A DNA stretch of 64,000 nt from Candidatus Borkfalkia faecipullorum (GCA_019114245.1 DXFX01000009.1:1-64000), one strand, 5' to 3'. Shown: positions 5,403 through 42,651, counted from the first letter of the stretch. Notes: generated by a model not told the origin, from the sequence alone. A program made the numbers and translations.

Positions 5403-5431
5403 TTGTCAAAAAGGCATTTATGTGATATAAT
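5403..5431 (+). promoter_or_regulatory. Sigma-A promoter upstream of the 5.5-26.6 kb operon
   Basis: TTGTCA - 17 nt - TATAAT. Confidence 0.7.
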
Positions 5432-5521
5432 CATAGTGTCGAATTATTGAGTATCGTGTTGAATTTTCACTGAAAATGGAATGACAACCATACAAAAACT
5501 GATTTTTTGGGGGCGAATGAG

Positions 5522-12533: not shown

Positions 12534-13142
12534 ATGGCAATGCAGATAGGAAAAATTCTGTTTCCCGTGACGACGCTCGGCCCGGGAAAGCGGGTCGGGA
12601 TCTGGGTCCTGGGCTGTCGCAGGAACTGCAAGGGGTGTTCCAATCCGGAGCTTCAGCTGTTTGACGAGACAAAGGATGTCCCCGTCGGCGATGTCATCGG
12701 ATTCGTGCGCACGCTGGATTGCGAAGGCGCCACCATATCGGGCGGCGAGCCTTTCCTGCAGGCAGAGGCTTTGAAGGAACTGGTAGAGGGGCTTCATCGG
12801 GAGAAGATAGAGGATATTCTGGTCTATAGCGGCTTCACAAAAGAGCAGCTGGAACAAATGCACGACCCGAATATCGATTATGTTTTGTCGCATATCACCG
12901 TCCTGATCGACGGCCCTTTTGTGGAGGAGCTGGTGGACGGCGTACCGCTGCGCGGCTCTTCCAACCAAAGGGTGTGGTTGTTTGATGACAGGTACGAGCA
13001 GCAGTATCTTGCGTGTCTGCGCAATGAAAAGAAGGTAGATATTTTTGAGTTCGGGGATGAGACGCATTTTATCGGCATTCCCTTTAAAAATTACAGGCAG
13101 CTCTATGTAAAATATCTCAGGACAAGGGGACAGAATGAGTGA
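12534..13142 (+). CDS. NrdG-like radical SAM protein (4Fe-4S single-cluster type)
   Basis: GIWVLGCRRNCKGCSNPELQ (CxxxCxxC), ISGGEPFLQ; no NrdD in the window. Confidence 0.85.
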   Translation: MAMQIGKILFPVTTLGPGKRVGIWVLGCRRNCKGCSNPELQLFDETKDVPVGDVIGFVRTLDCEGATISGGEPFLQAEALKELVEGLHREKIEDILVYSGFTKEQLEQMHDPNIDYVLSHITVLIDGPFVEELVDGVPLRGSSNQRVWLFDDRYEQQYLACLRNEKKVDIFEFGDETHFIGIPFKNYRQLYVKYLRTRGQNE

Positions 13143-15292: not shown

Positions 15293-18121
15293 ATGAAGAA
15301 GCTGATCGAAAGCATCTATGCCTATATTTATCAATATAACTATGTAGGGCGCTGCGATCTCGGAATGAAAGTGTATACGCTCACGGAGGGCCTGGACGAC
15401 TCGGAGATCGGATACGTTACTTCCCTGATAGAGCGGATCGACAACGCCAAACTTGAATCGGTGGACAGGGAGGAGGGCGTAAAGAGTATCGGAGAGCCTG
15501 CGGAGCCGGACTACGATCTGGTCTCTTTCGCCTATTATCCCAAGAGAAAATCGGGCGGGATGTGTGTTCTCACCCGCACCGGACTGCGCAAATCGCTGCG
15601 CGACAAGACAGTACGGGGGACGAAAGAGATCATCCATGCCCTGCTGTTTGACAGCGCAGATCCAGATCAATACGCGGTCGATTTCATGGAAAGCAAAGTG
15701 TTTTCTTCCTATACGGACATAGCCCTCGATGAAGAGCACCCCGTGCCTCGCGATGTCTGCGAAAAACAGCCCGATCTGCTCCGACCTGTCGATCCGGGAG
15801 AACTCACTTCTGCACCCTTGAAATTGTCCGAGGTCCAGGGCCCGAATATGTCGGTGGCAAAGGTTTCCGAGCTCGTGAAAGCGATTTTTCTCGCAAAGCG
15901 GGACAAAAAGTGCGTCTATGTCGTGTACAGACCCATCGATCTGAAACTCGCGACAAAATATATCAGGGCGGCGCTGAAGTTTTTGCCCGCACACATCGCA
16001 AACCAGCTCTCCTTTATTACCTGCTGCGGCGAGCTCAGTCTTGAAGGCTTTTCATTTGATATTTGCGGGATCCCCACGAGCAGCAGAGAGAATATCGCCA
16101 GACTCAGGGAGACGGGGTATGTCGTGAGCATCGACGCAACGGGCGTTACAGGGGTGAAAGGAGAAAAAGTCCCGTTTGCGTTTTTTTTGAGCACGTCAGA
16201 CAATAAAACGTTACAGGACTGGCTGGACGCGGCCCCGATTTACGATGCGTGTCTGAACACGTTGGATGACGTCAACGACATCGTCATGCTCTATCAGAAC
16301 AGGGGAAGGGAGACGAGGGGCGATGACGTATCGGAACGCGTTGACCACTGCTTTGAAACCATCGTCAGGATGACCAGGATGGCAAATCTCATCAAGAGCA
16401 TCGACGATATTGAGAGGATAAAATACATCAGGGCTCTTTCCGACGACCTGGAAGGTATTTGTGCGGATATGCGTTCTGTGTCTGCGCAGAGGGTGTACGA
16501 CAAGCTTTTCATGCCTCTTACACGGCTGATAAAAGAATTTCCCCTTTCCGCATTTCCGGAAGTGAACGATTCGCTGAAAAAATCCGTCTACTGCATTCTG
16601 TTCGGCGTAAAGGGTCAGAGCGCGGAGGCCGAGCGCGTACACTTCGACTTTCTTTCCCACAAGAGCAGCGATATTCTGCGGGAATCGGAGGAGTGCGGCC
16701 TCAGCATCATAGAGTATCTCAAGACGGAATGGGAGTTTTGCGGCGCCTTTTTCAAGGACTATTTTTCGGATGCAAAATATTCGGAATATGCCTGCGACAT
16801 AGGCAAGACGGTGCTGAAAAAGCTTCCGTGCGACGTGGGCAACGGCAGTGCGGCGTTCAGCAAAGTGCGGGATTTTTTTGTCGAAAACATTCTCAGCATT
16901 CAGCCGAACGGTCTGAGCGATATTTTAAGGCTCGCATTTGAGGCGTCGGACCGCGCCGCGGTCTTTCAATACTTCCTGGTAAAGCTGCCGGAAATTTCAC
17001 GCGCATCTGCGGAGTTGTTTGAAGACAGGGTGTCATCCTTTGCGGATCATATCGTTGCGGGGGGAATGCTGGAGGAGGCGCTCAGATTTTTCATCGAACA
17101 ATTTGTGTTTGCGGATGAAAGCAATAAAGAGTGCGTCGACAAGATCTTAAAGAAACTGCTGGACGCCTATATCGTCATTCCCGCCCGCCGCACGATGGAG
17201 GAACTCTGCAACGGGTTGCAGAGGGTGCAGGCTTTGATGTCAGAGCATAAGACGGCGGGGCTGGAAACTTTTCTGTATGCCGAGTATGCAGAGCGCGTCA
17301 TCAATCCGTTTTGGGAGGAAGCGATCGCGCAGGTGCGGTTCGAGGTCCTTTCGGAGGAGGAGGTCGATCGCTATCGGGAGCTCTGGCAGGTCTACAGAAA
17401 GGGCGAATTGGTCACCAAGGCAGATCCCGCATTCTGCGAGCGGCTGGAAAAACTGTTTCAGAATTACGAAGTTTACAATCGGCAGGAGCAGAGAGAACAG
17501 GAACTCGTGGATTTCCGCATCGACTTTATCATCCGCGAATTTATCCTGCTCGATGCCGGGACGATTCTGAAGATCCTGAAAGAATTTGTTGGAGAACAGC
17601 AGCTTTCGCAGTACCTGTATCATGAAGGGCTGGGAACCAAACCCGAAAAAGACGAAAGATTTCTGGAAGTAAGTGAAAAGATCGCCCGCGAACTTCTTAC
17701 CGAAAAGGGGGCGGAACTTTCCAAGGAAGAGCAGAAAAACCTGAACGCGAAGAAAATCAGGTTTGCGGAAAAAGTCCGTCGGATCCACAACACGCGGCAC
17801 AGGGCGTCTCTGATCAGAAATATAAGCGACGGCACGCGCGGGCTGATCGGTTCGAGCATTCTTACGGCCGTCATGGTCTTGCTGGCCGCAGTGGCCGGGG
17901 TCCTGCTCTATCACTTCTACGACGGACAATACTTTCGGTCGGTCTACTTTATGTTTGCAGTCCTCACGGGGATCGTGTGCGAAATGATGTATTGGTATAA
18001 CTATTCTGACCGCAGGTTGCACAATGTCGAAGTGAGGGTGACGTGGCAGACAATCATCACCATGATCGTCATGATCGGCCTGTATGTCCTTGCGCAGTTT
18101 ATCCTGTCGTTTTTGTTCTGA
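15293..18121 (+). CDS. GTPase-associated (GAP1-like) protein with C-terminal membrane segments
   Basis: N-terminal YVGRCDLG...LVSFAYYPKRKSGGMCVLTRTGLRKSLRDKTVRGTKEIIHALLF...ANQLSFITCCGELSLEGFSFDICGIP resembles the GAP1-N layout; C-terminus with ~3 TM helices; adjacent to GTPase. Confidence 0.5.
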   Translation: MKKLIESIYAYIYQYNYVGRCDLGMKVYTLTEGLDDSEIGYVTSLIERIDNAKLESVDREEGVKSIGEPAEPDYDLVSFAYYPKRKSGGMCVLTRTGLRKSLRDKTVRGTKEIIHALLFDSADPDQYAVDFMESKVFSSYTDIALDEEHPVPRDVCEKQPDLLRPVDPGELTSAPLKLSEVQGPNMSVAKVSELVKAIFLAKRDKKCVYVVYRPIDLKLATKYIRAALKFLPAHIANQLSFITCCGELSLEGFSFDICGIPTSSRENIARLRETGYVVSIDATGVTGVKGEKVPFAFFLSTSDNKTLQDWLDAAPIYDACLNTLDDVNDIVMLYQNRGRETRGDDVSERVDHCFETIVRMTRMANLIKSIDDIERIKYIRALSDDLEGICADMRSVSAQRVYDKLFMPLTRLIKEFPLSAFPEVNDSLKKSVYCILFGVKGQSAEAERVHFDFLSHKSSDILRESEECGLSIIEYLKTEWEFCGAFFKDYFSDAKYSEYACDIGKTVLKKLPCDVGNGSAAFSKVRDFFVENILSIQPNGLSDILRLAFEASDRAAVFQYFLVKLPEISRASAELFEDRVSSFADHIVAGGMLEEALRFFIEQFVFADESNKECVDKILKKLLDAYIVIPARRTMEELCNGLQRVQALMSEHKTAGLETFLYAEYAERVINPFWEEAIAQVRFEVLSEEEVDRYRELWQVYRKGELVTKADPAFCERLEKLFQNYEVYNRQEQREQELVDFRIDFIIREFILLDAGTILKILKEFVGEQQLSQYLYHEGLGTKPEKDERFLEVSEKIARELLTEKGAELSKEEQKNLNAKKIRFAEKVRRIHNTRHRASLIRNISDGTRGLIGSSILTAVMVLLAAVAGVLLYHFYDGQYFRSVYFMFAVLTGIVCEMMYWYNYSDRRLHNVEVRVTWQTIITMIVMIGLYVLAQFILSFLF

Positions 18122-18133
18122 GGAGAAAGACAT

Positions 18134-21067
18134 ATGGCAGAAAGTCAATTCACAAAGAAAAAAATCAAGCTGTTTCTCGTCGTCCTGGTGCTTGTGGCAA
18201 TTCTCTCCGTCGGGATGGGGGTAGGATTTTATTTCTATTACGGCCATGCCGTCGATGCGTCGGATATCTCTGTCTCTTTGCAGGACCGCATGAAGATAGG
18301 GGCGAGCTTTACGGTGGACGACATTCTCGAAAGCGAGGGCTATCGGTACGGTTGGATGAGATCGGATGTCGAGGTCACCGTTCTGGTGGAAAATGCCGCC
18401 TACGACGAACAGGACGAGACGTCGGGAGAGGAATATATCCCGACGCAGGGCATTCTCGATTATAACGACGGCACGCGTACCTTTACGGTGTGCGGCGTCG
18501 GGGCGGGGATCATCGATTTCAGAGATCCGTTTGACTCTTCCGTCAGCCTGCAGGTCCCGTTCAGAACGCGTTTTGACAACGGGGATACTTCCGAGATCCT
18601 GGAAGAAAACTATCCCGAACTGTTTGAAGACGGGTTCGTAGCCAAAGAAGAATTTGACGAGGTGACGGAACTGAGGCTGACAACTGTCCGTTCCTACGAT
18701 GTAGCCGAACTTTCCGCGTGCCGCAATTTATCCCGATTTGTTCTTTCTTCGGAAGAAGTGATCACGCTGAACGGTCTGCAATCGATTCCGTCCGCGGTCG
18801 ATGTGTATGTTACAGACGGCCTGTATGAAAAATACCTGACCGACGCCGCCTGGAACGATCAGGCAGACAGGGTGTATCCCATCGTGGATCTGAGCGAAGG
18901 GAAGCACACGATCGTCTTTGAATTCAACAGCGGCGCGATCGCCGCCGTCGGCGATGCGCCGCGGACGTATGCGAGCGTGTCGGACGGGGAGAGGATCGAT
19001 CTTGCGCAGTATCCCGTGATGCGTACGGGTTATACCCTTCTGGGTTGGTTTACGAGCGACGACGGCGGACAGACTTTCAGCGATTTCCGCCTGGATTCCG
19101 AGTATGCGATCCGCGACAATCTGAAAGTCTATGCAAAATGGCAGGCAAATACTTACGGGATCACTTATCACGATACAAAGTTCAACACGGATGTCCCTGC
19201 GTCGCAGACTCTGACATACGACGAGAGCGGCAGCCTTTCCGCCGATCTTTTGATGCACGACGGCTATACCTTCCTCGGTTGGGCGCTGACGGAAGGGGCG
19301 GCGGCTGTTTCTTTTGAGATCGGGGAGGAAGTGATCAATCTCGCGTCGGAAAACAATGCCGAAATCAATTTGTATGCGGTCTGGGCTGCAAACGCATACG
19401 ACATCGTTTATGACGGAAATGCTGTCGGCGTGACAAACGTTCCGTCCAGACAGGAGGACATCGCATTCGATACAGAGGTCCTCTTGTCCGCGCAGGAGCC
19501 GTACAGGCAGGGTTATACCTTCATCGGCTGGGCCGTCAGGGAAGATGCTCTCAGTTATGATTATCTGCCCGGCGAGACCGTAAAAAACCTCGTGTCCGAT
19601 TCCGATGGGACGGTGGTTCTCTATGCGGTCTGGAGCGCCAATACATACTCGATCCGCTACGACCCGAACGGCGGAGCAAACGCGCCCTTAGATCAGGAAA
19701 ATCTGATCTACGGGCAGGAGATCACCCTCTCTTCGTCGATCCCCGTGTGGCACGGAAGAAACTTTCTCGGCTGGTCCAGAGATCGGGATGCCGCCACCGC
19801 AAGCTATCTTGCAGGGGCAACCGTCTCCAATCTTGTGGCCGATGCGGGAGGTGCGGTCACGCTGTATGCGGTTTGGGAATATGACTCTTTCCGTATCAAA
19901 TATGACGCCAACGGAGGTGCGGATGCGCCCGATATCAGCTCTTACATTTCGTATAACAGTGCAAGCGCATTGTTGGCGTCCGGTAAACCCAATAGGACAG
20001 GTCATACCTTTATCGGGTGGTCGTATTCGTCCTCCGGCAATGTGGATTATGCGAGCGGACAGTCATTGAGCCAAGGCGAGATCAACGAGATGTACGATCA
20101 GGCAGACTCGGACGATAACATCCTTGTCCTGTACGCCTGCTGGTCTGTAAACTCGTACAAGATAACAGTGAAAAAAGACGGCGGCTCGGTGACAGGAGTG
20201 ACCAGCGGTTCGCGTTATCAGTACGATCAGCGGATCACCATAAAAATCAGCTATGATTATAAGAAAGACAGATATGTTGAGGTCGACGGGAAAAATTTAG
20301 GGGAAAAAGCTTCTCATTCCTTCAATATGCCGGCCCATGATATAACCATCAAAGTATATTCCAAAGAAGGATGCGTTGCGACGGGAACGCTGATCACTAC
20401 GGCGGATCTGAGGCAGGTCCCCATCGAAAGCCTGAAAGTCGGAGATAAGGTCCTTGCGTGGGATTTTGTCACCCAAAGCTTTGTGGAGACGGAAATCACT
20501 TTGTTTGTCTGTCACGGGGATAAAAGTTACGACGTCCTGAATCTGCAATTTGGCAACGGGTCAAAGCTCAGGACAATAGGCAATCATGTTCTGTTCGACG
20601 TGACGCAAAACGAGTATATTACGATCAACACCGACAATTACACGCAGTTCATGGGCCACGACTTTTTGTGCTACGATCTCTCGTCGGGCAAATATGCGGT
20701 ATCGCAGCTGACGCAGGCCGAAGTGACGCAGGAAGTCACAGGCTCGTATACCATCGTTACGGCACAATATTTCAATTACGTATCGGAAAATGTGGTCACG
20801 ACGTCGCCGACTGTTCCCGGATTGTACGAGTTGATCTCTTCGTATGTCATGGACGATCTCACATTCGATCTGGCGGAGTTTGAAAAAGACATTGCAGAAT
20901 ACGGACTATACGGATATGAAGTGTTTGAGGACCGTATGTCCTATGAACAGTTTGTACAGCTGTGCGGGCCGTATTTTAAACTTGCGGTCGAAAAAGGGTT
21001 CACGACCTTGGAGAAAATTCTGGAAGTGCTCGACTACATCGCACAGTGGATGGTATCGGGTGATTAG
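18134..21067 (+). CDS. Membrane-anchored InlB-type B-repeat protein with C-terminal Hint (intein/hedgehog-like) domain
   Basis: N-terminal TM; ~6 GYTFLGW...LYAVW repeats; EGCVATGTLITTADLRQVPIESLKVGDKVLAWD...TIGNHVLFDV Hint signature. Confidence 0.85.
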   Translation: MAESQFTKKKIKLFLVVLVLVAILSVGMGVGFYFYYGHAVDASDISVSLQDRMKIGASFTVDDILESEGYRYGWMRSDVEVTVLVENAAYDEQDETSGEEYIPTQGILDYNDGTRTFTVCGVGAGIIDFRDPFDSSVSLQVPFRTRFDNGDTSEILEENYPELFEDGFVAKEEFDEVTELRLTTVRSYDVAELSACRNLSRFVLSSEEVITLNGLQSIPSAVDVYVTDGLYEKYLTDAAWNDQADRVYPIVDLSEGKHTIVFEFNSGAIAAVGDAPRTYASVSDGERIDLAQYPVMRTGYTLLGWFTSDDGGQTFSDFRLDSEYAIRDNLKVYAKWQANTYGITYHDTKFNTDVPASQTLTYDESGSLSADLLMHDGYTFLGWALTEGAAAVSFEIGEEVINLASENNAEINLYAVWAANAYDIVYDGNAVGVTNVPSRQEDIAFDTEVLLSAQEPYRQGYTFIGWAVREDALSYDYLPGETVKNLVSDSDGTVVLYAVWSANTYSIRYDPNGGANAPLDQENLIYGQEITLSSSIPVWHGRNFLGWSRDRDAATASYLAGATVSNLVADAGGAVTLYAVWEYDSFRIKYDANGGADAPDISSYISYNSASALLASGKPNRTGHTFIGWSYSSSGNVDYASGQSLSQGEINEMYDQADSDDNILVLYACWSVNSYKITVKKDGGSVTGVTSGSRYQYDQRITIKISYDYKKDRYVEVDGKNLGEKASHSFNMPAHDITIKVYSKEGCVATGTLITTADLRQVPIESLKVGDKVLAWDFVTQSFVETEITLFVCHGDKSYDVLNLQFGNGSKLRTIGNHVLFDVTQNEYITINTDNYTQFMGHDFLCYDLSSGKYAVSQLTQAEVTQEVTGSYTIVTAQYFNYVSENVVTTSPTVPGLYELISSYVMDDLTFDLAEFEKDIAEYGLYGYEVFEDRMSYEQFVQLCGPYFKLAVEKGFTTLEKILEVLDYIAQWMVSGD

Positions 21068-21070
21068 GAT

Positions 21071-22075
21071 ATGAGCAGGATAAACATAGCAAATTTAAAA
21101 AATTTTTATTCGGAAAAGCTTGAAGCGCAGCACTTCCAGGTGTATGCCGATTGTGTCGGAAATCTCTTGCAGGGAAAGCTCCGCACTGTCGTTACGCTGG
21201 AAATGACGGAAAAGAACCGACAGGCAGCAGAGAGCGTGGTGGAAGCGATCGTGTACGGCTGTCCGGAGCTGTTTTTCATCGAACAGGAGGTCCGCACTTC
21301 GTGGTCGGGAAATCAGCTGACTCTGGATTTTAAAAACAAGTACCCGAAGGAAAACATCGGTGAGTTGTGGGAGAAACTGAATGCGGAAACAGACCGCATC
21401 TGCGCCATCATCAACAAGTTCCAGACCGTCTATGATAAGCTCAATCGTCTGAACGATTATCTCTGCGCGCGCGTCAAGCCCGTAAGTTCTTTTGAGAGGA
21501 GCGAGCTCGGCGACGCATACGGGGCGCTGATTTTGAAGCAGGCCCGCTGCGAGGGGTTTGCCAAGGCCGCAAAGCTGATCCTGGACCGATGCGGCATTCC
21601 GAGCCTGATCGCAAAGGGCGAGGCGGATTCCGGGTGCAGGCGGGAGCCGCACGCCTGGAACATCGCCGCCTGCGGGGACGCGTTCTATCACTTCGATTTT
21701 ACGTGGAACGCGGGGTATGCCGCGCATGGCATCCCGGGCGCCGATTATATGTTTCTGGACGATCGCGATTGCGGATTGCAGCATTTTCCCGATCACAAAT
21801 ATCCCGCCTGTACGGATGCAGGCAAGACGTTCTGGGCGGTCAACAACGGAATTTTGAAGTATCATTCCGATCTGTCCCGCATCAGGCTGGTGCCGTTCGG
21901 GCGCAATTATATGGCCGCCGCAAAACTGCCGCGCAAGCTCTCGCAATACGAGTATGAAAACGAAGTTTTCGGCTGGATGGTCAACGAACTGTCCGCGCAC
22001 AGTTACGCAAGCACGTTCAGCTATCGCTACAATCAGGTGTTTCAAGTACTTTTCTTTTATTTCATCAACGGCTAA
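21071..22075 (+). CDS. Transglutaminase-like (papain-fold) protein
   Basis: ARCEGFAKAAKLILDRCGIP ... EPHAWNIAACGDAFYHFDFTWN (Cys-His-Asp pattern). Confidence 0.8.
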   Translation: MSRINIANLKNFYSEKLEAQHFQVYADCVGNLLQGKLRTVVTLEMTEKNRQAAESVVEAIVYGCPELFFIEQEVRTSWSGNQLTLDFKNKYPKENIGELWEKLNAETDRICAIINKFQTVYDKLNRLNDYLCARVKPVSSFERSELGDAYGALILKQARCEGFAKAAKLILDRCGIPSLIAKGEADSGCRREPHAWNIAACGDAFYHFDFTWNAGYAAHGIPGADYMFLDDRDCGLQHFPDHKYPACTDAGKTFWAVNNGILKYHSDLSRIRLVPFGRNYMAAAKLPRKLSQYEYENEVFGWMVNELSAHSYASTFSYRYNQVFQVLFFYFING

Positions 22076-22089
22076 GGAGGATGATCGTT

Positions 22090-22389
22090 ATGGACAAGCA
22101 AACGGTATTGGATTTCAGAAATGACTTTATGAGGTATACAGACCTCACTGCCGCGCAGATTTCTGTTCTCGCGCCCGTTCTTTACGGACAGGAGGACAGA
22201 TACTATGAGGCCTGCGTACAGTTTTTGAAGAAAGGGGAAATGCAGAACCTTACTTACGGGGAGTATTCGACCGACCTCATCATGAAAGGGATGCGTTGCT
22301 CTTATCCCGAAGCGCTCGTGATCATGCGCAATATGGAGCAATTCCCGGACTACGCAGACTTTTTCTTCGTGCCGAGAATGGTGGAGTGA
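22090..22389 (+). CDS. Small hypothetical protein
   Basis: AAGGAGG ribosome-binding site 9 nt before ATG 22090; between co-directional genes. Confidence 0.6.
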   Translation: MDKQTVLDFRNDFMRYTDLTAAQISVLAPVLYGQEDRYYEACVQFLKKGEMQNLTYGEYSTDLIMKGMRCSYPEALVIMRNMEQFPDYADFFFVPRMVE

Positions 22390-22395
22390 TGCGCT

Positions 22396-23724
22396 ATGGG
22401 AACAGAAAACACCGCATTGGGTCAGCAAGCGGGGAAAGTCACGTTTGACGCGTCCGATTACAGGACGTATTTATCGTACGAAAAATTTCAGGGACTCTCC
22501 TCTGATCAGAGAGAAGCCCTTTTCAAGTTTGCGTCACAGCAGACTGCTGACGAAAAGGGCTTGAAGCAAGTGGATTTTGAGGCAGAAAGGGTGCTGCCCG
22601 ATAAAGACGGCAGGCTCTGGGGCGGGTCGTGTTCTCAAAAATTCAGCCAGATCATCAAGAAGTTTGAAGGTCATGAACTTTCGATGAATTCGTACTGCTG
22701 GAATCGGGACAGCATAACTGCCCCGTATTCGTCTTGCAGAACGATGTATCACGAGTTGGAGCACGCCGCGCAGTTTGAACGTTCCATTGACAGGGGGATC
22801 AAAAACAGCGATCCCGCTGCGCTGGAAATGCGTCTCAACGACGGTCATTACTATCGTTCGAACGGCGACAAGGCCGTCCTGACTCCGACAGGTCTGACGT
22901 TGAGCAAGCGCTTCGGAAACGCGGCGGACGCGAACAACAACATCGATTTTCATTTGTACCAGGCACAGGCGTGCGAGACGGAGGCGCGGCGCGCGGGGAT
23001 CCGCGGGCTGGAAGAAATGCAGAAATACAATCGGGAACACGGAATTTCCGATTATCATCTGGATGCGTATGTGAGCGCGGCAAAGGCGGAAGAAGCACAT
23101 ATCAACCGTTCGATCATGAAAGATCTGGGGATGCACCCGCGCGAACAGATGGCGAAAGAACAGCTCTCTCAGATCCCGAAAAGCAAGATCTCGGAAGAGG
23201 ACAGGGCGAGAGTGCTTCAATACGCGCGCGAAAAAGACTACGAGATGGCAAGCGAAGTTCTGCGCGACAATGCGCGCGGACAAATTTCCGAAGAGGAAGT
23301 CCGCGAACAGTTCGACAAGAACATAGGGTATCCCGACTTTTTCGAATCGCAGGAATATCAAAGCAAAAAGGCAACCTATGCGGAACGCCTCAATTATCAG
23401 ATGCCCAAATACAGGTGGAGCGAGAATGCCTCGGAAAACGAGAACTCTCAATCGTTTTTTGACAGTCTGGCAAGCAAAGTCGAGGGCAAGATCGAAGAAA
23501 AGCTCGACAATGTGCCGGGAGAGAAATTTTTCTCGGGCATCGAGCGGCGGGCCGAGGGGAATGCAGGCGGTCAAAACGCCGCCGCGGCGTCCTTGGAGGA
23601 AACGCAGGGGAAATCCGATTTCTTTGACAGGACAGAGTCCGGGCAGACAGCGGAAAAGTCCGCTTCCGCATCGGCGGAGGAAGAAGCGCGCAAGCGCGGC
23701 GCGGGGCAGGGACAGACGCTGTGA
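22396..23724 (+). CDS. Putative HExxH metallopeptidase-like protein
   Basis: CRTMYHELEHAAQFERS with downstream QACETEARRAG. Confidence 0.6.
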   Translation: MGTENTALGQQAGKVTFDASDYRTYLSYEKFQGLSSDQREALFKFASQQTADEKGLKQVDFEAERVLPDKDGRLWGGSCSQKFSQIIKKFEGHELSMNSYCWNRDSITAPYSSCRTMYHELEHAAQFERSIDRGIKNSDPAALEMRLNDGHYYRSNGDKAVLTPTGLTLSKRFGNAADANNNIDFHLYQAQACETEARRAGIRGLEEMQKYNREHGISDYHLDAYVSAAKAEEAHINRSIMKDLGMHPREQMAKEQLSQIPKSKISEEDRARVLQYAREKDYEMASEVLRDNARGQISEEEVREQFDKNIGYPDFFESQEYQSKKATYAERLNYQMPKYRWSENASENENSQSFFDSLASKVEGKIEEKLDNVPGEKFFSGIERRAEGNAGGQNAAAASLEETQGKSDFFDRTESGQTAEKSASASAEEEARKRGAGQGQTL

Positions 23725-23768: not shown

Positions 23769-25094
23769 ATGATCGTACAGAAAAATGTTTTGGAAGGGAG
23801 CACGCTGTCGCAGAACAGGCAGCCTGAAATTCATCACGGCACGGTCGAGATCGGCGGAACGTGCAACGGAGCGCCCGCCTGTTTTCGCATGAACGACGAA
23901 ATATTGAGCAAGCACGTCATGCTGATCGGCGGTACGGGCTGCGGCAAGACAAATACTTTTTTGCACATTGTCAGCCAGCTGCAAGCGTCCATGACGCCCG
24001 ACGACGTGATGGTCATTTTCGATACAAAGGGGGACTATCACAGTTATTTTTACCGCAGCGGGAGAGATCGTGTGATCTCTGCTTCGGAGAAAGACCCCGC
24101 CGACGTGTGGAACCTGTTCGATGAGATCCTTCTGGACGGGACAGACAGGGACAGGGTGGAGGAAAATGTTCAGGAGATCGCCTGGGGGTTGTTTGCGGAA
24201 ACCATCCGCAAAGACAACAGCAATCCCTTTTTCCCCAACGCGGCAAGGGATCTCTTTTCGGCGATCCTGACCTGTATGGTGCGCAATGCGGCGGGGAACG
24301 AAGAGCTCAGGGAGCGGCGGCTGAACAATGCGTTTTTACGGAAATGTCTGGACGCGCTGACGGTAGACGGTCTGCGCGATATGCTGAAAGGCAACAGCGA
24401 TCAGGAGGCCGTCCTCACCTATGTCGGGGACGGACAAAACCCGCAGGGACTGGGCGTTTTTGCGGAACTTCAGACGGTGCTGCGCCGCATCCTGATCGGC
24501 GCCTTCGCGCAAAAGGGCAGTTTTTCCATGCGTCGGTTCATAAGGGAACGCAATGCGCGCACGCTCTTTATCGAGTACGATCTGTCGCACGGTTCAATGC
24601 TCATCCCGATCTATAAATTGCTGATTGACCTCGCGCTGAAAGAAGCCATGGGCGAAAACGCCAGGAAAAGAAAGAATACGGGAAACGTCTACGTATTCTG
24701 CGACGAATTCAAGCTCCTGCCCGACCTCATGCACATCGAAGATGCGGTCAATTTCGGGCGTTCGCTCGGGATCAAGGTCTTTGCGGGCCTGCAGAGCATC
24801 GACCAGCTCGAAGAAAATTACGGGGAAGCGCGCGCCAAAAATATCGTTGCGGGGTTTTCCAGCATTCTGGCATTCCGCGCAAACGACAGGAACACGCGCG
24901 AATTTATATCGGGCAAGTTCGGAAAGAATTATATCATGGAGCAAAACGTCTCGATCGGCAATACGATCGTTGAAGAAAAGCGGATCGGGAACGTCGTGGA
25001 GGATTGGGAACTCAGCAATCTGAGCGTCGGAGAAGCGGTAGCGGGGCTGCTGGCAAATCCGCCGTTCCGTTTTCGGTTCGATTTATTCAGATAG
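23769..25094 (+). CDS. VirD4/TraG/TrwB-like coupling-type P-loop ATPase
   Basis: VMLIGGTGCGKTNTFLHI Walker A; VMVIFDTKGDY; VYVFCDEFKLLPDL Walker B; GLQSIDQLEENYG. Confidence 0.8.
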   Translation: MIVQKNVLEGSTLSQNRQPEIHHGTVEIGGTCNGAPACFRMNDEILSKHVMLIGGTGCGKTNTFLHIVSQLQASMTPDDVMVIFDTKGDYHSYFYRSGRDRVISASEKDPADVWNLFDEILLDGTDRDRVEENVQEIAWGLFAETIRKDNSNPFFPNAARDLFSAILTCMVRNAAGNEELRERRLNNAFLRKCLDALTVDGLRDMLKGNSDQEAVLTYVGDGQNPQGLGVFAELQTVLRRILIGAFAQKGSFSMRRFIRERNARTLFIEYDLSHGSMLIPIYKLLIDLALKEAMGENARKRKNTGNVYVFCDEFKLLPDLMHIEDAVNFGRSLGIKVFAGLQSIDQLEENYGEARAKNIVAGFSSILAFRANDRNTREFISGKFGKNYIMEQNVSIGNTIVEEKRIGNVVEDWELSNLSVGEAVAGLLANPPFRFRFDLFR

Positions 25095-25108
25095 GGAAGC
25101 GGGAGAAA

Positions 25109-26629
25109 ATGTTTATTATTCAATGGATCATAGGGTTTTTTCGCGGAATTTTCAACAGACACAGGGCGCGGAGAAGAACGCATGAACTGCTTGCGCAAAA
25201 CCAGCGGGCAAGGGACGTAATGCTTTATTACGATTCCCCCGTAGAAGCGTTTTACGCGCTGGATATGGAGGGGAATATCATCGTATCGGGAAACAACGCC
25301 GCCCTGCGCAACCGCGTGCTCACTGCGGCAGCCTATCATCGTTGTCAGAGGCGGATCCCCGTCATTATTCTGCACTGCGGCAATAAGGCGCTCGAAAGGC
25401 TGGTGGCAGACGCTTATGAAAGGGAGCGGGCGCCCCATATCATCAACGCCGAACACCCGGAATACGATCCGTTTACGGAACTTCGCAAGGAAGAGATCTC
25501 GCAGATGGTCATATCCTCTTCCGGCAGCGACAACAAGGTGGAACGCATCGGCGGTCTGTATATCAACGGCCTGACCGATTATCTTCTGGCAAGAGGGCGC
25601 CGCCCGATGGTGAGGAGCTATATCTCTTGCCCGCACGATGCAATTCTGTCGCGCGTGATGGAACACCGCGCGGACGGCTCGATGTCGGAAGCGGATGCAA
25701 CGCGCATCAGCTCGGAGATCACGCAGGGCAAAGCCGAGCAGGGGAATGTAGAGCAGTATTTCCGCGTCCTGGATACGCAGGCGTCCTGCATTCTGGCGCG
25801 AAAGGCGGAGGATGCAATCAGTATCCGAAAGGCGATCGAGGAGGGCAAGACGATCATGCTGGACATCGTTTCTGCCTCCAATATTCTTTTGATCAATCTC
25901 CTGGTTCAGGAAATAACGGATGCAATGGCGCGCGGCAAGCGCTTTTTGCTCGCGATCGACGGCATCCCCGTGGATGCGTCGGAAGGCCTGGCGCGCCTGA
26001 TGAAAAACTATTCAAACGCCTGCAATTTCGTATATTCCTCTTCGGATTTTTATGCGGACACGCAGAGTACGGCAAACACCTTTGAGACGCTTCTTGCAAA
26101 GGCGAACATGGTGTATGTCATGCAACACAGCGCGGCGCAGTCAGGGAAAAAGTTTTCGGAATATTTCGGTCAATATCGTCCTGTCGAGATCAACACGACC
26201 TATGTCAGCGGTACCGTGTATCCCACTTACGGACAGCTCTTGCCGGGGACCAATTCTTCCGATGTGCAAACGACGCAGCTCACAGACAGGCCGAGAATCG
26301 AAGAGCGGGACATCGCAGAACTTGCGCTCGATGAAATGTTTATCAAACGCAATTCCGAGCACGAGATCATGCGCGTGCGTTGTACGGCGGGGGAGGCAAC
26401 GGGAATGTACGAGGCGCCGCGCAGGCGGGGCAGGTGGCCGAGGTTGCCCGCTGTCGGCGTAAACTGGGCGTTATTCGTCTTGCTGCTGCTCGTTCCGCCC
26501 GCAGCATTTATCTATCTGTTTGCGGTAGGCGGCAGGGTAGGGAAGATCGTAAGCGCAATCGTCCTGGTGCTTATGCTTGTGGGTGTCATTGTATCAAACG
26601 TTTTAAGCTATATTGCTTTATCGGGCTGA
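25109..26629 (+). CDS. Membrane-anchored protein, probable catalytically inactive paralogue of the VirD4-like ATPase
   Basis: GNIIVSGNNAALRNRVL at Walker A position lacks GxxxxGK[ST]; FLLAIDGIPVDASEGLARLMKNYSNACNFVYSSSDFYAD aligns by eye with the partner's Walker B region; C-terminal TM helices. Confidence 0.55.
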   Translation: MFIIQWIIGFFRGIFNRHRARRRTHELLAQNQRARDVMLYYDSPVEAFYALDMEGNIIVSGNNAALRNRVLTAAAYHRCQRRIPVIILHCGNKALERLVADAYERERAPHIINAEHPEYDPFTELRKEEISQMVISSSGSDNKVERIGGLYINGLTDYLLARGRRPMVRSYISCPHDAILSRVMEHRADGSMSEADATRISSEITQGKAEQGNVEQYFRVLDTQASCILARKAEDAISIRKAIEEGKTIMLDIVSASNILLINLLVQEITDAMARGKRFLLAIDGIPVDASEGLARLMKNYSNACNFVYSSSDFYADTQSTANTFETLLAKANMVYVMQHSAAQSGKKFSEYFGQYRPVEINTTYVSGTVYPTYGQLLPGTNSSDVQTTQLTDRPRIEERDIAELALDEMFIKRNSEHEIMRVRCTAGEATGMYEAPRRRGRWPRLPAVGVNWALFVLLLLVPPAAFIYLFAVGGRVGKIVSAIVLVLMLVGVIVSNVLSYIALSG

Positions 26630-26652
26630 ACAAACAGGAAAGGAACAAAGCG

Positions 26653-26686
26653 AAGCCGCCGAAAGTTTTTCGGCGGCTTTATTTTT
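26653..26686 (+). terminator. Rho-independent terminator closing the large operon
   Basis: aagccgccg-aaagttttt-cggcggctt then tatttttcc. Confidence 0.85.
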
Positions 26687-31838: not shown

Positions 31839-32696
31839 ATGAAGCAAATGGGTTTTGAGATCGGCGCGCTGCAAAACGAACTCTGGCAGGTGCGCAAGCA
31901 GCGCAGGTTTGTCATGCGCAGCTCGGAGGAACGGCTGCACGAACTAGCGGAAAACGCCTGGTCGGAGGACAGCCTGGCGCAGCTGGTCAGAAAATACGGG
32001 CTGTGCGACGTGTGCGACTTTTCGGGGCTCAACATCTCGGCGGCGCGGGTGCTTGTCAACTGTGCGATCGCGGCGCTGTACAGGTATCCGCTGCTGCGCA
32101 GCAGGTTCTGTTATCTGGGTTCGCAAAAGGGGTACGTGGCGCTGGTAAAGAAGTTTACGCAGTGCGACGCGGAAACGATGAAGGCGCTGGGCCTGCAGCA
32201 CATCTGCGGGGCGGAATTGGCGAGATCGTTCGGGCAGGGGCTGCTCGAATTTATGGCGGAACCTTCCCGCGGCACGGGCAACGTGCTGGCGCAGGCGGTG
32301 CTGGCGGGCGGATTTCTGGACGGCGTCCTGCTGGACGAAAGGGATTTCAGCACAGAGCGGTTCCGCGAGATCAAGGAGAGTCTGGAAGAGAGCGTGAGGA
32401 TAGGGCATTTTGCCAAGGACTGCGCCTCTGTTTCCGCCGTCATCTTTCACGAGATCGGGCATCTGCTCGATTCTCTGTGCGGCGTCAGCGAGGGCGCCGC
32501 AGTGCAGGAAGCGTTCCGGGAGGGGCGGGAAAGAAAGATCGCAAAGGAGCTTTCCGCCTATGCGGCAACTTCCCCCGCGGAATACGTGGCGGAAGGGTTT
32601 GCCGAATGTATGTCCTCCGGCGCGCCGCGCAGGGCGGCCCGCGCCGTTGCGGAGGCGATCGCAAAGAGTTATCAAACGCTGGAAGCGTCAAGATAA
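31839..32696 (+). CDS. Putative HExxH zinc metallopeptidase-like protein
   Basis: SAVIFHEIGHLLDSLCG ... AEYVAEGFAECM (gluzincin-like third ligand). Confidence 0.65.
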   Translation: MKQMGFEIGALQNELWQVRKQRRFVMRSSEERLHELAENAWSEDSLAQLVRKYGLCDVCDFSGLNISAARVLVNCAIAALYRYPLLRSRFCYLGSQKGYVALVKKFTQCDAETMKALGLQHICGAELARSFGQGLLEFMAEPSRGTGNVLAQAVLAGGFLDGVLLDERDFSTERFREIKESLEESVRIGHFAKDCASVSAVIFHEIGHLLDSLCGVSEGAAVQEAFREGRERKIAKELSAYAATSPAEYVAEGFAECMSSGAPRRAARAVAEAIAKSYQTLEASR

Positions 32697-32721
32697 ATAT
32701 TATTTACAAGGAGAGGAATCC

Positions 32722-33426
32722 ATGGAAAATCTCGAAAGGAAAAAAAGGTGCATTGACATTGTGTTCTGTATCGACGGAACGGGGAGCATGAGCGACTGCA
32801 TCGAAAACGTGAAAAAGCACGCGCGCAACTTTTATTCGATGCTCGTTGAAAAGATGACGAGGCTGGGCAGCGACATCGACGAGACGCGCGTGCAGGTCAT
32901 CGTGTTCCGCGATTACGGGTACGACGGCGCAAACGCCATGCAGATCAGCCCCTTCTTCCTGCTGGACCAGGACGCCGCCGATTACGAGGAATTCCTCGCA
33001 AACGTCAGGGCGCAGGGCGGCGGAGACGGGCCTGAAAACGGATTGGAAGCGCTGTATTACGCCATGCAGAGCGCATTCGAGAGCGGCGACGACGACCGCC
33101 AGGTCATCGTTCTGTTCACGGACGCGGACGCGCTCGAGCTGGGTGCGCGCGCGGACAAGGAAAACTATCCCAAGGACATGGTGGACGAGGCGGGACTGGA
33201 CAAAATGTGGATCGGCAAAGATCAGACGCACGTCGGCTACCTCAATCAGCTGACCAAGCGCCTGGTCATCTTCGCCCCCGCGGGCACCAAGTACGAAGCG
33301 CTCGCCAAGCGCTGGAACCTCACCTGGTACAAGGCGGTTGCGGACGACAACGGACTTTCCGAGATCTCCTTTGAGGACATCATCGACCTCATCGGCAAAT
33401 CCGCGACGGCAAAGGCGAGGAGATAA
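32722..33426 (+). CDS. VWA-domain protein (TerY-like)
   Basis: DIVFCIDGTGSMSDCIENVKKH MIDAS motif; GGGDGPENGLEALYYAM. Confidence 0.85.
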   Translation: MENLERKKRCIDIVFCIDGTGSMSDCIENVKKHARNFYSMLVEKMTRLGSDIDETRVQVIVFRDYGYDGANAMQISPFFLLDQDAADYEEFLANVRAQGGGDGPENGLEALYYAMQSAFESGDDDRQVIVLFTDADALELGARADKENYPKDMVDEAGLDKMWIGKDQTHVGYLNQLTKRLVIFAPAGTKYEALAKRWNLTWYKAVADDNGLSEISFEDIIDLIGKSATAKARR

Positions 33427-33498
33427 AACAGGACAGGCGGAGCCATTGCCGTGCGGGCAGTGGCTCTTTGCCGCGGGAAAGGACAAAGGAGGAAAATT

Positions 33499-35076
33499 AT
33501 GATCTTTCACGGTTATGAGGTGGATCCCGAATACATTCTGGCGGGGTCGGACCTTCCCGACTGGCATTCGGCGGGGCTGGGCGAGTTCATCGTCGGGCGC
33601 AAGGACGGCAAGCGCTGGTTTATCAAGCGCAACAACGAGTACCGTTTCCCCACCGCCAAAGAACAGCCGGACAAGGAACTGCGCGATTTCTACCTGATCC
33701 CCGCCAAACAGTACCAGGCAGATCGGGAACTTCTGCGCAAACTGATGGTCGAAAAGGGCAAACTGACGGCGGAAAAGGACCACATCGTCCCGGAAGTGGA
33801 GCATTTCATTTCGGAGGGCAGGATCGTCCTGGTCAGCCGCTTTGTGGAAAACATCGCGCGGGATGCGGATTTCGTGGGCATGGACGCGGCGCATTTCATT
33901 CCCTTCTGCGCGGACGTCGCCCGGCTGATCGCCAGACTGCACGAATGCGGCATCATCCACTGCGACCTCAAAGTGGGGCAGCCGGACGACGTGATGAGCG
34001 GCAACGTCGTGGCGGCCGTCGAGGGCGGGAAACTCATCCCGTACCTCATCGACTTCGACCTCTCTTTTCCCGCGCCTCCCGCAAAAAATCCCGAAAGCAT
34101 CCCGCATTCGGACAATTACGAAAGCCCCGAGATCATTCCCTACATCGACGGCGACGAGGAAAAATGCACCGAGATCACGATGGCGACGGACGTCTTCACG
34201 CTGGGAATCGTCTTTCACAAGCTGTGGACGGGCTCTTTCCCCGCAGTGGAGGTGGAGCGCGCTTCGGCGGGCCGCTGCGTAGCCAACGACAAGGCGGTCA
34301 CCATTCATAAGAAGTTCGACGTGCGCATCGGGGAAAAATGCGGCGCCACCTTCATGTCGCTCATCAACTGGATGCTCGCCAAGGATCCCGCCGCGCGCCC
34401 CACGGCAAAACAGGTGAGAGAGGTGCTCACCGATCAGCTCGCGGTGCCGGACAAGTACCATAAAGGTTCGGACGTCAAGCAATTTACCGAACTTTGGGAC
34501 GCGCACAAGCTGGCCGCGGAAAGGCTCCCGTCCGATCAGATGCAGGCGAAGGGCGTCGCTTCCTTCAAGCGAATCAACGACGGCGGCCGCCTGAAATATC
34601 TCGTTTCCACGGCGGACGGAAAGGAGGCGAGCCTCTCTCTCGAAGAGATCATCGCGGCGGGTTACGCCGCACGCAAGCCCGCCAACGTGTCCGAGCCGTG
34701 GGAGGAACACAACATCGTCATGGCCTCCCCCGAGGACATCGCCGCCAAGGGCTATGTGGAGGTGACCGCGGCAACGGCGGGCGGACACCGCTACCGCATC
34801 GTCACCGCGACGGGCGTGGTGTTCACGCACGGCTACGAGTGGCTGATCTCCGAAGGTCTTGCCGTCCGCAAGGCGGTGGAAGCCATCGAAGGGGACGAGC
34901 CGTGGCCGGGCGACGGCAAGTACGCCAGCCCCGAATTCCTCGCGGAACGCGGCGTGAAAAAGATCCTGCGCGTCAAGTACGGCCCTGAAAACAGGTACCG
35001 CGTGGAGTTCAAGGACAGGGAACCGCTCGACTACGTCAACGCGGGGACCATGAGAAAACTGAGGTATCTCGTATGA
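33499..35076 (+). CDS. Protein kinase-fold protein with C-terminal repeat-like extension
   Basis: ECGIIHCDLKVGQPDDV catalytic loop, LIDFDLSF, APE-like YESPEIIPY, TDVFTLGIVFHKLWTG. Confidence 0.85.
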   Translation: MIFHGYEVDPEYILAGSDLPDWHSAGLGEFIVGRKDGKRWFIKRNNEYRFPTAKEQPDKELRDFYLIPAKQYQADRELLRKLMVEKGKLTAEKDHIVPEVEHFISEGRIVLVSRFVENIARDADFVGMDAAHFIPFCADVARLIARLHECGIIHCDLKVGQPDDVMSGNVVAAVEGGKLIPYLIDFDLSFPAPPAKNPESIPHSDNYESPEIIPYIDGDEEKCTEITMATDVFTLGIVFHKLWTGSFPAVEVERASAGRCVANDKAVTIHKKFDVRIGEKCGATFMSLINWMLAKDPAARPTAKQVREVLTDQLAVPDKYHKGSDVKQFTELWDAHKLAAERLPSDQMQAKGVASFKRINDGGRLKYLVSTADGKEASLSLEEIIAAGYAARKPANVSEPWEEHNIVMASPEDIAAKGYVEVTAATAGGHRYRIVTATGVVFTHGYEWLISEGLAVRKAVEAIEGDEPWPGDGKYASPEFLAERGVKKILRVKYGPENRYRVEFKDREPLDYVNAGTMRKLRYLV

Positions 35077-37223
35077 AAGATCTTTCCTTTGTTTTTCACG
35101 TAAGCACTCCCAACAACGAGGACGTGGAGCCTCTGTTGTACAAAAACTGGCTCGCCGCCGCCGACGGAATGGGCGGTTCGGGCTGTATGCGGCACAGGGT
35201 GGAGGAAAAGTACCGCGCGTCGCTTCAGGCGGTGCTCGGCTGCGTCCTGCCCGAGTACGAAAAGAGCGCTTCCCATCCCGATCTCGCCCCGCTCCTGCCC
35301 TATGCGGAAGGGGAAAATTGCTATTTTGCGCGCATCTTTGCGCCCCTTATCAAAGACGAAGTCAACACGTCCGCTCGCTGGGCGTCCCGCATCGTCATGG
35401 CGCGCTTTCTGTACTTTCTCGTCGCGGCGGAAGGGGCGGGGAAATGCGACCCTGACGATGCGCAGTTTGTTGAGAAAACGGAAAAATTCATCAGCCGCGG
35501 GCTGGAGCGGGCAAAATCCGTGCTGCACCTTTCGGTGGACAATCCGAGCATGACATTGCTCCCCACCACCTTTGCCGCCCTCCGCTATCTGCCCGTATCC
35601 GAAGAGGAATGCGCCGTCCACGCCCTCTGGGCAGGGGATTCGCGCTGTTACGTGCTGGACGCGCAGGGCCTGCGCAAACTTTCCGCGGACGACGAGGACG
35701 AGAGCAAACTGCTCACAAACAGTTTCAACGCGGAGGGCCACGCCCGACTGAATTGCCGCGCCTACCGCCTGAAAATGCCCTTTGTTCTGCTCTGCGCGAG
35801 CGACGGGTTTTTCGACGCGTACGACAAGACGGGCCTGCCCGTCGAGGCAAAGCTTTTAGGCGACATTCTCGGCGCGTCCTCGGCGCAGCAGCTGAAAGAA
35901 GTGCTCGTTGCCCGCTACAACAACAATCTTTCGGACGATACGAGCGTGGCGTTTGTTCCCGTCGGGTTTGATTCCTACGAGGAGATCCGCAGCCTGCTCT
36001 CCGCCCGCCGCAAACAGATGGACGAACTGTACGCCCTGCACAGGGAATGCGCGCCCGTCCTCGCCCTCATCGACAAGCCCGAATTCCGCGTGACGGCAAC
36101 CATCTGCGACCGCTTTCAGATGAAATTTGCGGACATCATCCGCGCGCTGACGCAGGCGTATTATCAGGGCAAAAAGGAATCGCTCCTCACTTCGTGGTGG
36201 CGGGAAGTCATCGCGCAGAGCGAAACCGAGTGCAGGCAGGAATATTCCGAGCGCGCGCGGGAACGCAGGGAACAGCTGAAAAAAGAGGCGGCGGAAGAGA
36301 TCGAAAAGCGCGGCTATGCCGCCTGTTTCCGCAGGAAAATATTGCCCGGCGGCTGGATCACCGACCACGTCGAGGCGCTGCGCACCGCAACCGAAGCGCT
36401 GGCAAAGGCGGAAGCAAAACTCGCCTCTTTCTCCTCCTGCAGGGAAAAACTTCTCGTGGAGCGGGAGGAACTGCGCCGCAATCTCCGCGCGGAACAGCGC
36501 GAACTTCTGTCCGAATTTCTCCCCCTGGTCGACGCCCCCGAAGGCGCCGCGGAAGACGTGCTGTCCGACAGCAAGCTCCGCTGCTCCCTCACATTCTGGC
36601 TGAACAATCTTTCCCGCCTCGAACTGTATCTTTTCGATCGGAAACTCAAACTCGGCGACGCGGAGCGCAACGGGAAGTACAGAAAGATGTTCCGCAAGGC
36701 GGAAGAATACTACGAGCATTGCAAAAGAGCGGAGGCGGACGAGATCAGGGCAAAATCGGAGTGTGCCCTCTGCGAAAAGGAGTACAGGGCCGCCCTGAAA
36801 AAGGTGAAAGATCACATTTCCACCATCTTGCAGGAGCGCCGCAACCTCCTGTCGGCGGAGTTTATCGCCGATCTGGACATGGACGCGATCATGTTCGGAC
36901 AGATCGCGCGGGAGGAACTGTGCGAGCGCGTTTCGCAAAAACTCGTGCAGGAGTACGCAAAGGATCCGCGCATGATCGCGGACACGCTGGACGCGTACAA
37001 GACCTCGGCCGAATCCTGCATCGATTATCTCTTCCCCGCGTCCAGGCTGGCCGATTTCCGCAAATACTATCTGTACAGGGGGGAAGCGGGTTCGGAAAAA
37101 TACGCTTCCTACCGCGCCCGCCTCGCCGCCTATGAGGAGGAGACGGACGCCCTCCTGCGCGCACCCGCCGCTCCCGAACAGGGGGAAGGCGATCGGAAAC
37201 AAAACGGAGAATCAATATGCTGA
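35073..37223 (+). CDS. PP2C-family protein phosphatase with long coiled-coil C-terminus
   Basis: NWLAAADGMGGSG; ALWAGDSRCYVLD; LLCASDGFFDAYD; LSDDTSVAFVP. Confidence 0.88.
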   Translation: MKDLSFVFHVSTPNNEDVEPLLYKNWLAAADGMGGSGCMRHRVEEKYRASLQAVLGCVLPEYEKSASHPDLAPLLPYAEGENCYFARIFAPLIKDEVNTSARWASRIVMARFLYFLVAAEGAGKCDPDDAQFVEKTEKFISRGLERAKSVLHLSVDNPSMTLLPTTFAALRYLPVSEEECAVHALWAGDSRCYVLDAQGLRKLSADDEDESKLLTNSFNAEGHARLNCRAYRLKMPFVLLCASDGFFDAYDKTGLPVEAKLLGDILGASSAQQLKEVLVARYNNNLSDDTSVAFVPVGFDSYEEIRSLLSARRKQMDELYALHRECAPVLALIDKPEFRVTATICDRFQMKFADIIRALTQAYYQGKKESLLTSWWREVIAQSETECRQEYSERARERREQLKKEAAEEIEKRGYAACFRRKILPGGWITDHVEALRTATEALAKAEAKLASFSSCREKLLVEREELRRNLRAEQRELLSEFLPLVDAPEGAAEDVLSDSKLRCSLTFWLNNLSRLELYLFDRKLKLGDAERNGKYRKMFRKAEEYYEHCKRAEADEIRAKSECALCEKEYRAALKKVKDHISTILQERRNLLSAEFIADLDMDAIMFGQIAREELCERVSQKLVQEYAKDPRMIADTLDAYKTSAESCIDYLFPASRLADFRKYYLYRGEAGSEKYASYRARLAAYEEETDALLRAPAAPEQGEGDRKQNGESIC

Positions 37224-42622: not shown

Positions 42623-42651
42623 AATTTTTCTCCTTATCGCAGTTTTCCCGA

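Follow-up and report, generated by a model that had tools for sequence, protein, structure and literature searches.

A VirD4/TrwB-type ATPase and a P-loop-less partner of predicted TrwB fold beside toxin-like genes in Candidatus Borkfalkia faecipullorum

What is the role of a VirD4-like ATPase encoded next to a protein that resembles such an enzyme without its catalytic residues? The question is raised by two adjacent genes in a 64,000-nucleotide stretch of the Candidatus Borkfalkia faecipullorum genome (GCA_019114245.1 DXFX01000009.1:1-64000), referred to below as the window. The original prediction, made from the DNA sequence, described an intact enzyme beside a P-loop-less, membrane-anchored paralogue, a pseudo-ATPase that would anchor the active subunit or form mixed rings with it. 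Both open reading frames were recovered where they had been placed. P1, the active ATPase, spans 23769-25094 (+ strand, 441 aa) and P2 spans 25109-26629 (+ strand, 506 aa). The probable start of P2 is the ATG at 25109, located 15 bases past the P1 stop; a TTG at 25004 falls within P1.

The two ATPase-like proteins

P1 is assigned to the TrwB/VirD4 family by Pfam (PF10412, TrwB_AAD_bind, E 1e-44), and its closest solved relative is TrwB (1e9r; phmmer, E 4e-17). The Walker A (GGTGCGKT) and Walker B (FCDEF) motifs are both present as announced, together with NFGR and GLQS. All 88 relatives of P1 have preserved the Walker A and NFGR motifs, and 86 of them the motif-3 glutamine. P1 is the sole TrwB-family ATPase of its genome. 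Unlike P1, conjugative VirD4 proteins have a hydrophobic N-terminus; none of the 88 relatives displays one and P1 itself has no transmembrane segment. No relative of P1 turned up when viral contigs were scanned, so that it is not a common phage gene.

P2 bears GNIIVSGNNAALRNRVL at the Walker A site and FLLAIDGIPVDAS at the Walker B site, and the alterations extend to the whole family. The Walker A lysine position is occupied by lysine in 0 of the 33 aligned members, the loop starts with serine (31/33) and glycine (33/33), and an arginine (32/33) stands in the place of the usual Thr/Ser, which defines S-G-x5-R as a new fixed motif at the former Walker A site. At Walker B, the aspartate is retained in 28 of 33 relatives and the glutamate in 3; NFGR is missing from all 34 relatives, and the motif-3 glutamine is lost across the family as well. 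With Walker A intact in 88/88 P1 proteins and an altered lysine and arginine pattern of such constancy in P2, the contrast between the two families is not due to chance, and the fixation of a new motif indicates that the P2 site is under selection and not decaying. P2 was also considered as a decayed pseudogene, a possibility ruled out by its conservation across many families.

The comparison of P2 with Pfam, NCBIfam, PHROGs and PADLOC returned nothing useful, two matches being rejected as noise (sCache_2 in Pfam, E 0.058; HAD, E 0.018), and both a P2-only scan of genome contigs and a plasmid search yielded zero relatives. The family could be recovered only via P1-anchored loci (80 loci, from genome contigs), among which 32 members were identified directly and 35 after iteration, the latter figure including an active ATPase of locus L055 described below; the family as a whole exceeds 35 members. 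An AlphaFold model built with 32 sequences reached a pLDDT of 89.9 and a pTM of 0.78, as compared with a pLDDT of 43.6 when 3 sequences were supplied. Among the best 35 PDB matches of this model in Foldseek, 33 are TrwB and 2 are the Helicobacter pylori coupling protein Cagbeta; the top match is TrwB (E 1.4e-10, probability 1.00, TM-score by target of about 0.53) and, in the predicted model, the TrwB-like fold spans the whole P2 chain. A profile of P2 compared with PDB sequences retrieved DotL/IcmO first (E 8e-4) and then Cag5 (E 0.06), both of them coupling proteins. Since the AlphaFold model matches TrwB best, P2 is modelled as a RecA-like protein of TrwB fold, a point on which the original prediction could have failed; in conjunction with the loss of catalytic residues in the 33-member alignment, the model upholds the reading of P2 as a pseudo-ATPase.

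The term paralogue requires more care. No usable similarity between P1 and P2 is detected by blastp, and their profile-profile alignment, suggested as a check at the outset, is colinear but weak (E 0.06 to 0.13), so that homology is argued from the fold and from two bridge ATPases. The first of these (L055, 543-1931, minus strand) is a TrwB-family protein with an intact P-loop (Pfam TrwB, 2e-17), which is nevertheless matched with an E value of 3e-14 by a P2 profile built without it. The second, of locus L111, likewise has an intact P-loop and was obtained with a one-sequence search (E 2e-16). In addition, a Lactococcus P2 (G1068:C26) exceeds the Pfam TrwB cut-off. P2 is thus a paralogue at the superfamily level and no recent copy of P1. 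Of the active proteins found, the L055 and L111 ATPases are those most closely related to P2; both occur in genomes of a clade lacking P2, and a link with the origin of P2 is possible.

The membrane segments of P2 were confirmed for the window protein, whose residues 453-505 form hydrophobic C-terminal helices. These helices are confined to its own sub-clade (5 of 34 members), an N-terminal hydrophobic segment occurs in 5 others, and most members have no clear transmembrane segment. Membrane anchoring as a family-wide role of P2 was consequently ruled out, and this part of the original prediction does not hold as a general rule.

Gene surroundings and pairing across clades

P1 and P2 close a run of 13 tightly packed genes (5507-26629, 21 kb, gaps of at most 45 bases), which is predicted to form one operon. 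A Sigma-70-like promoter precedes it at 5403-5431 (+ strand; 11/12, a consensus match only), and a strong intrinsic-terminator-like hairpin of 13 pairs lies at 26652-26680 (+ strand), 23 bases 3' of P2. The run starts with a ClpB-like AAA protein (5507-7729; PF07724, E 4.5e-46), followed by three unknown proteins and an NrdG-like radical SAM protein. A DO-GTPase2-like GTPase comes next (13135-15282; PF19993, E 5e-6, just under the cut-off with 26.8 versus 27 bits), then a GAP1-like protein (GTPase-associated protein 1, middle domain; 15293-18121; PF20014, E 0.0014, below the cut-off), a protein with List_Bact repeats, a Hint domain (Pfam) and an N-terminal hydrophobic segment (18134-21067), and a transglutaminase-like protein (21071-22075; PF01841, E 2e-6). 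A small protein of the c27 family (22081-22389; c27 profile, E 4e-6) and a zincin-like protein (22396-23724, 442 aa), recognised by its HELEH sequence and ending with a disordered tail in GQGQTL, directly precede P1. The genes of the run that are given here with coordinates are on the + strand.

The transglutaminase-like gene recurs with P2 in 23 of 24 loci. The GTPase genes accompany P1-P2 in few loci, namely the window, L021 and L022. In the latter two, the order DO-GTPase, GAP1-like, Hint/repeat and transglutaminase is kept 5' of P1-P2, and L021 also matches the window in the small gene and the zincin, at the same place. DO-GTPase and GAP1 proteins have been described in systems with a predicted role in conflict and defence (PMC7159879), and the shared gene order ties this sub-clade to GTPase-centred conflict systems.

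Conservation of the pair was evaluated on a tree of 88 P1 proteins, in which clade I designates a fully supported set of 37. Among the 37 loci of this clade, 32 include P2, 2 are on contigs ending too soon and 3 have no P2 within the flank; the genomes of these 3 do have P2, in two cases on the same contig but beyond the flank, and in the third on a different contig. P2 is carried by 35 of the 35 scorable clade-I genomes and is the obligate partner of P1 in clade I. Clade II, represented by 25 genomes, offers the opposite picture: 23 have no P2 match, 2 have the active bridge ATPase only, and the P-loop-less P2 is present in 0/25. P2 is thus genetically tied to P1, a point in favour of the original prediction. 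A divergent P2 is encoded in L015, outside the 37. The distances of P1 and P2 are correlated (0.84 over 21 loci, versus 0.62 for P1 and PP2C), shared ancestry inflating such values. P2 is not always directly 3' of P1; in 3 of 4 new non-duplicate loci it lies 12-28 bases downstream, L102 and L105 being copies of known loci that were not counted among the new ones. Locus L042 contains a second P2 copy at 9879-11147, 6 kb past P1. In clade II, zinc-ribbon/PH-like membrane proteins are encoded in 42 loci (for example L056, L061 and L066), none of which has P2; such a protein is the constant partner of P1, in place of P2, in the P2-less clade.

A further companion of the pair is the association of a kinase, a PP2C phosphatase and a vWA protein, found together in 23 of 35 clade-I flanks and 0 of 30 clade-II flanks (Fisher p 5e-9, uncorrected for relatedness) and missing from about a third of the clade-I flanks. 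In the window, this triad occupies 32704-37223, 6 kb downstream of and apart from the P1-P2 operon, and comprises on the + strand a vWA protein (32704-33426; PF25106/PF00092), a Ser/Thr kinase (33451-35076; PF00069, E 2e-18, with an STK profile match) and a weakly recognised PP2C/SpoIIE-like phosphatase (35073-37223; SpoIIE, E 0.0067). The latter matches the phosphatase-like neighbour of the L015 kinase (blastp, E 3e-12). vWA, PP2C and Ser/Thr kinase genes in one neighbourhood, the hallmark of TerY-P, are thus present, with a window phosphatase of weak recognition; TerY-P triads have been reported in systems predicted to serve conflict and defence (PMC11090510). Two other window genes may be mentioned here: a second zincin-like protein with a weak M90 match at 31839-32696, just 5' of the triad, and a pentapeptide-repeat protein of 855 aa at 40091-42655 (minus strand).

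Toxin-like neighbours and the proposed working of the pair

Toxin and immunity genes adjoin P1 and are exchanged between loci. In relatives of the P1 locus, Tox-GHH (3e-24) is paired with SMI1/KNR4 SUKH-1 and Tox-HNH-HHH (2e-49) with Syd/SUKH-2, and a PD-(D/E)XK protein is also among the neighbours. HExxH zincin-like proteins are paired with small genes of the c27 family, which precede zincin genes and are represented in 9 loci, and the window contains this zincin/c27 version. The window zincin-like protein matches no Pfam toxin family; judged from its sequence it is a candidate cargo toxin, and the c27 protein at 22081-22389 is a candidate immunity protein or chaperone.

Many of the toxin-like proteins share an architecture with an N-terminal enzyme domain and a common disordered C-terminal tail, which is the reverse of classical polymorphic toxins, where the N-terminal part is devoted to trafficking and the C-terminal toxin is variable. 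The disordered tail is found in 37 of 76 genes upstream of P1 versus 6 of 374 other (core) system genes. A tail end of the form G-[YMIVQ]-x-x, first spotted by eye, is displayed by 31 of 55 non-redundant tails chosen with a looser cut, as compared with 1.2 in shuffled sequences, where the highest count in 5000 was 6; other offsets of that pair of positions gave 0 to 5, and core system genes 4/374. In a partly independent test, the more specific G-[QI]-x-R, learned on Tox-GHH, proved present in 5 of 14 other P2-clade tails (0.005 when shuffled); two of the five matching tails are mutually related. In 42 of 88 loci a tailed protein with the motif is encoded on the strand of P1, and in 0 of 88 on the opposite one. 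The four new loci provided a single weak example, which makes the motif common and not universal. The zincin-like protein, with its GQGQTL end, is the only window ORF with both tail and motif. Similar tails exist in clade II without P2, which is accordingly not required for tail use as such. Other features were noted in these loci: tailed proteins with repetitive beta-solenoid-like N-termini and no known toxin domain 5' of P1 (L059, L061, L070, L084), tailed proteins with glycine-rich hydrophobic starts (L074, L078, L091), and several genes of the c11 family within a single locus, with a C-terminal part similar to a formylglycine-enzyme/lectin-like domain (L045, L042 and others).

The presence of P1-P2 relatives beside toxin-like proteins with a common tail points to a toxin-handling machine. 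The explanation that we consider reasonably probable is that of a VirD4/TrwB-type machine acting on tailed toxin-like proteins instead of in conjugation, with P2 as its non-catalytic subunit and the triad probably switching it. It draws on the modelled fold, the residue loss, the obligate pairing, the gene order, the toxin and immunity neighbours, the tail motif and the lack of an adjacent relaxase. According to this scheme, a tailed toxin would be made together with its immunity protein, which would shield the producer until release. By analogy with the XVIPCD domains, which bind VirD4 (PMC6536674), the tail end G-[YMIVQ]-x-x would dock on P1 or on a P1-P2 complex. ATP would be hydrolysed by P1, and P2 would act as the obligate structural or receptor partner, either in a position of the ring, stacked on the ring or as a receptor for the tail, a role that may be compared with the domains without Walker motifs held by EssC-type motors (PMC11090510). 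P2 may provide membrane contact in some lineages, the kinase and phosphatase would probably switch the machine by phosphorylation, and the toxin would be moved or released, either to the membrane or beyond the cell. The 30 window proteins scanned include no recognised channel or export component beside the pair, and gene proximity does not show contact between P1, P2 and toxin. More tentatively, these loci might represent an undescribed toxin-deployment system of Clostridia and others, based on a soluble VirD4-like motor that would recognise unrelated toxins by their short G-[YMIVQ]-x-x tails, would bring them across or to the membrane without a classical type IV channel and, in one clade, would function only when paired with a dedicated pseudo-ATPase.

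Other explanations were weighed against the same data. A Pfam scan of the 30 window proteins detected no relaxase and no T4SS channel family (VirB4, VirB6 and others), as initially predicted, and the relaxase search was extended to homologues, where such a gene could have lain just outside the window. A relaxase (PF03432) is encoded in 14 of 27 P2-bearing genomes, the other 13 having none; it shares the contig of P1 in 3 of the 27 only, at least 25 kb away (25, 30 and 142 kb), and in two of these three a separate coupling protein lies between relaxase and P1. It is very improbable that P1 is an orphan conjugation coupling protein from a degraded integrative element and P2 its decaying copy: the TrwB family membership of P1 and the relaxases elsewhere in 14 genomes would suit such an origin, but the remote relaxases with their intervening coupling proteins argue against it, as do the conservation of P2 as a family, its new fixed motif and its strict pairing. 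P2 could alternatively be a pure membrane anchor, giving soluble P1 the membrane segment that it misses, as if VirD4 had been split. The absence of a hydrophobic N-terminus in all 88 P1 relatives is consistent with this idea, as are the C-terminal helices of the window P2 and the N-terminal ones of five others; it is nonetheless unlikely, because most P2 members have no clear transmembrane segment and because a mere anchor would not need the conserved S-G-x5-R site and a whole TrwB fold.

An intracellular anti-phage or suicide system, in which P1-P2 would move along nucleic acid in a HerA-like manner, is possible if somewhat doubtful, and equally so the corresponding sequence of events, namely that sensing by the kinase/PP2C/vWA proteins or by the GTPase frees or activates nuclease and peptidase effectors, the immunity proteins being antitoxins. 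An intracellular defence role fits the best PADLOC matches of P1 (mad8, E 3.5e-17) and of the kinase (mad6, E 1e-14), both MADS proteins. It also agrees with the occurrence of TerY-P triads (PMC11090510) and of DO-GTPase/GAP1 genes (PMC7159879) in predicted conflict and defence systems, and with the lack of an export channel among the 30 window proteins. The mad8 match is however at the superfamily level only, SUKH-type immunity, Tox-GHH and Tox-HNH-HHH belong to polymorphic toxin systems, and enzymes that are unrelated have the same kind of C-terminal tail, which suggests that a single receptor recruits them. Should the tail motif be a recruitment signal, cargo toxins could be found in gut Clostridia from sequence alone.

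Comparison with known systems

TrwB, VirD4 and TraD are hexameric RecA-like motors that recruit substrates. The likeness to these coupling proteins is seen by sequence in P1 (PF10412; TrwB, E 4e-17) and by predicted fold in P2, while the differences reside in the absence of an N-terminal transmembrane segment in P1, of an adjacent relaxase, and in the obligate non-catalytic second subunit. A kinase and a TrwB-superfamily ATPase are likewise part of the MADS anti-phage system, a similarity at the superfamily level; of the full mad1-mad8 set with its methylation genes, only mad6-like and mad8-like matches were obtained among the proteins scanned, and no methylase or restriction gene was seen among the scanned window genes. 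The window operon shares DO-GTPase2-like and GAP1-like genes with the DO-GTPase/GAP1 conflict systems, where inactive enzymes are a theme, and the available part of the source describes no P1-P2 pair (PMC7159879). A literature search limited to open-access papers retrieved none on the pair; the parts are of known kinds, and we could not find their combination described in the open-access literature.

The bacteria-killing X-T4SS similarly relies on a VirD4-type ATPase, on toxin/immunity pairs and on recognition of the C-terminal part of the toxin (PMC6536674). It nevertheless has a full set of class A subunits, is found in Gram-negative bacteria and recognises its toxins by a domain some 120 residues long (PMC6536674), whereas in the P1-P2 loci, mostly of Clostridia, the shared motif is short and terminal, and the 30 window proteins include no channel component. 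Pseudo-ATPase domains are known within larger secretion motors, whereas P2 is a protein of its own that accompanies a VirD4-like enzyme throughout the family. The EssC-type motors of the T7SS, members of the FtsK/HerA superfamily, are the case in point: some of their ATPase domains are without Walker motifs and they are associated with TerY-P (PMC11090510), as here, but the degenerate domain of EssC is part of the same polypeptide, whereas in the present loci, where no WXG100 gene was noticed, it is a separate protein of predicted TrwB fold.
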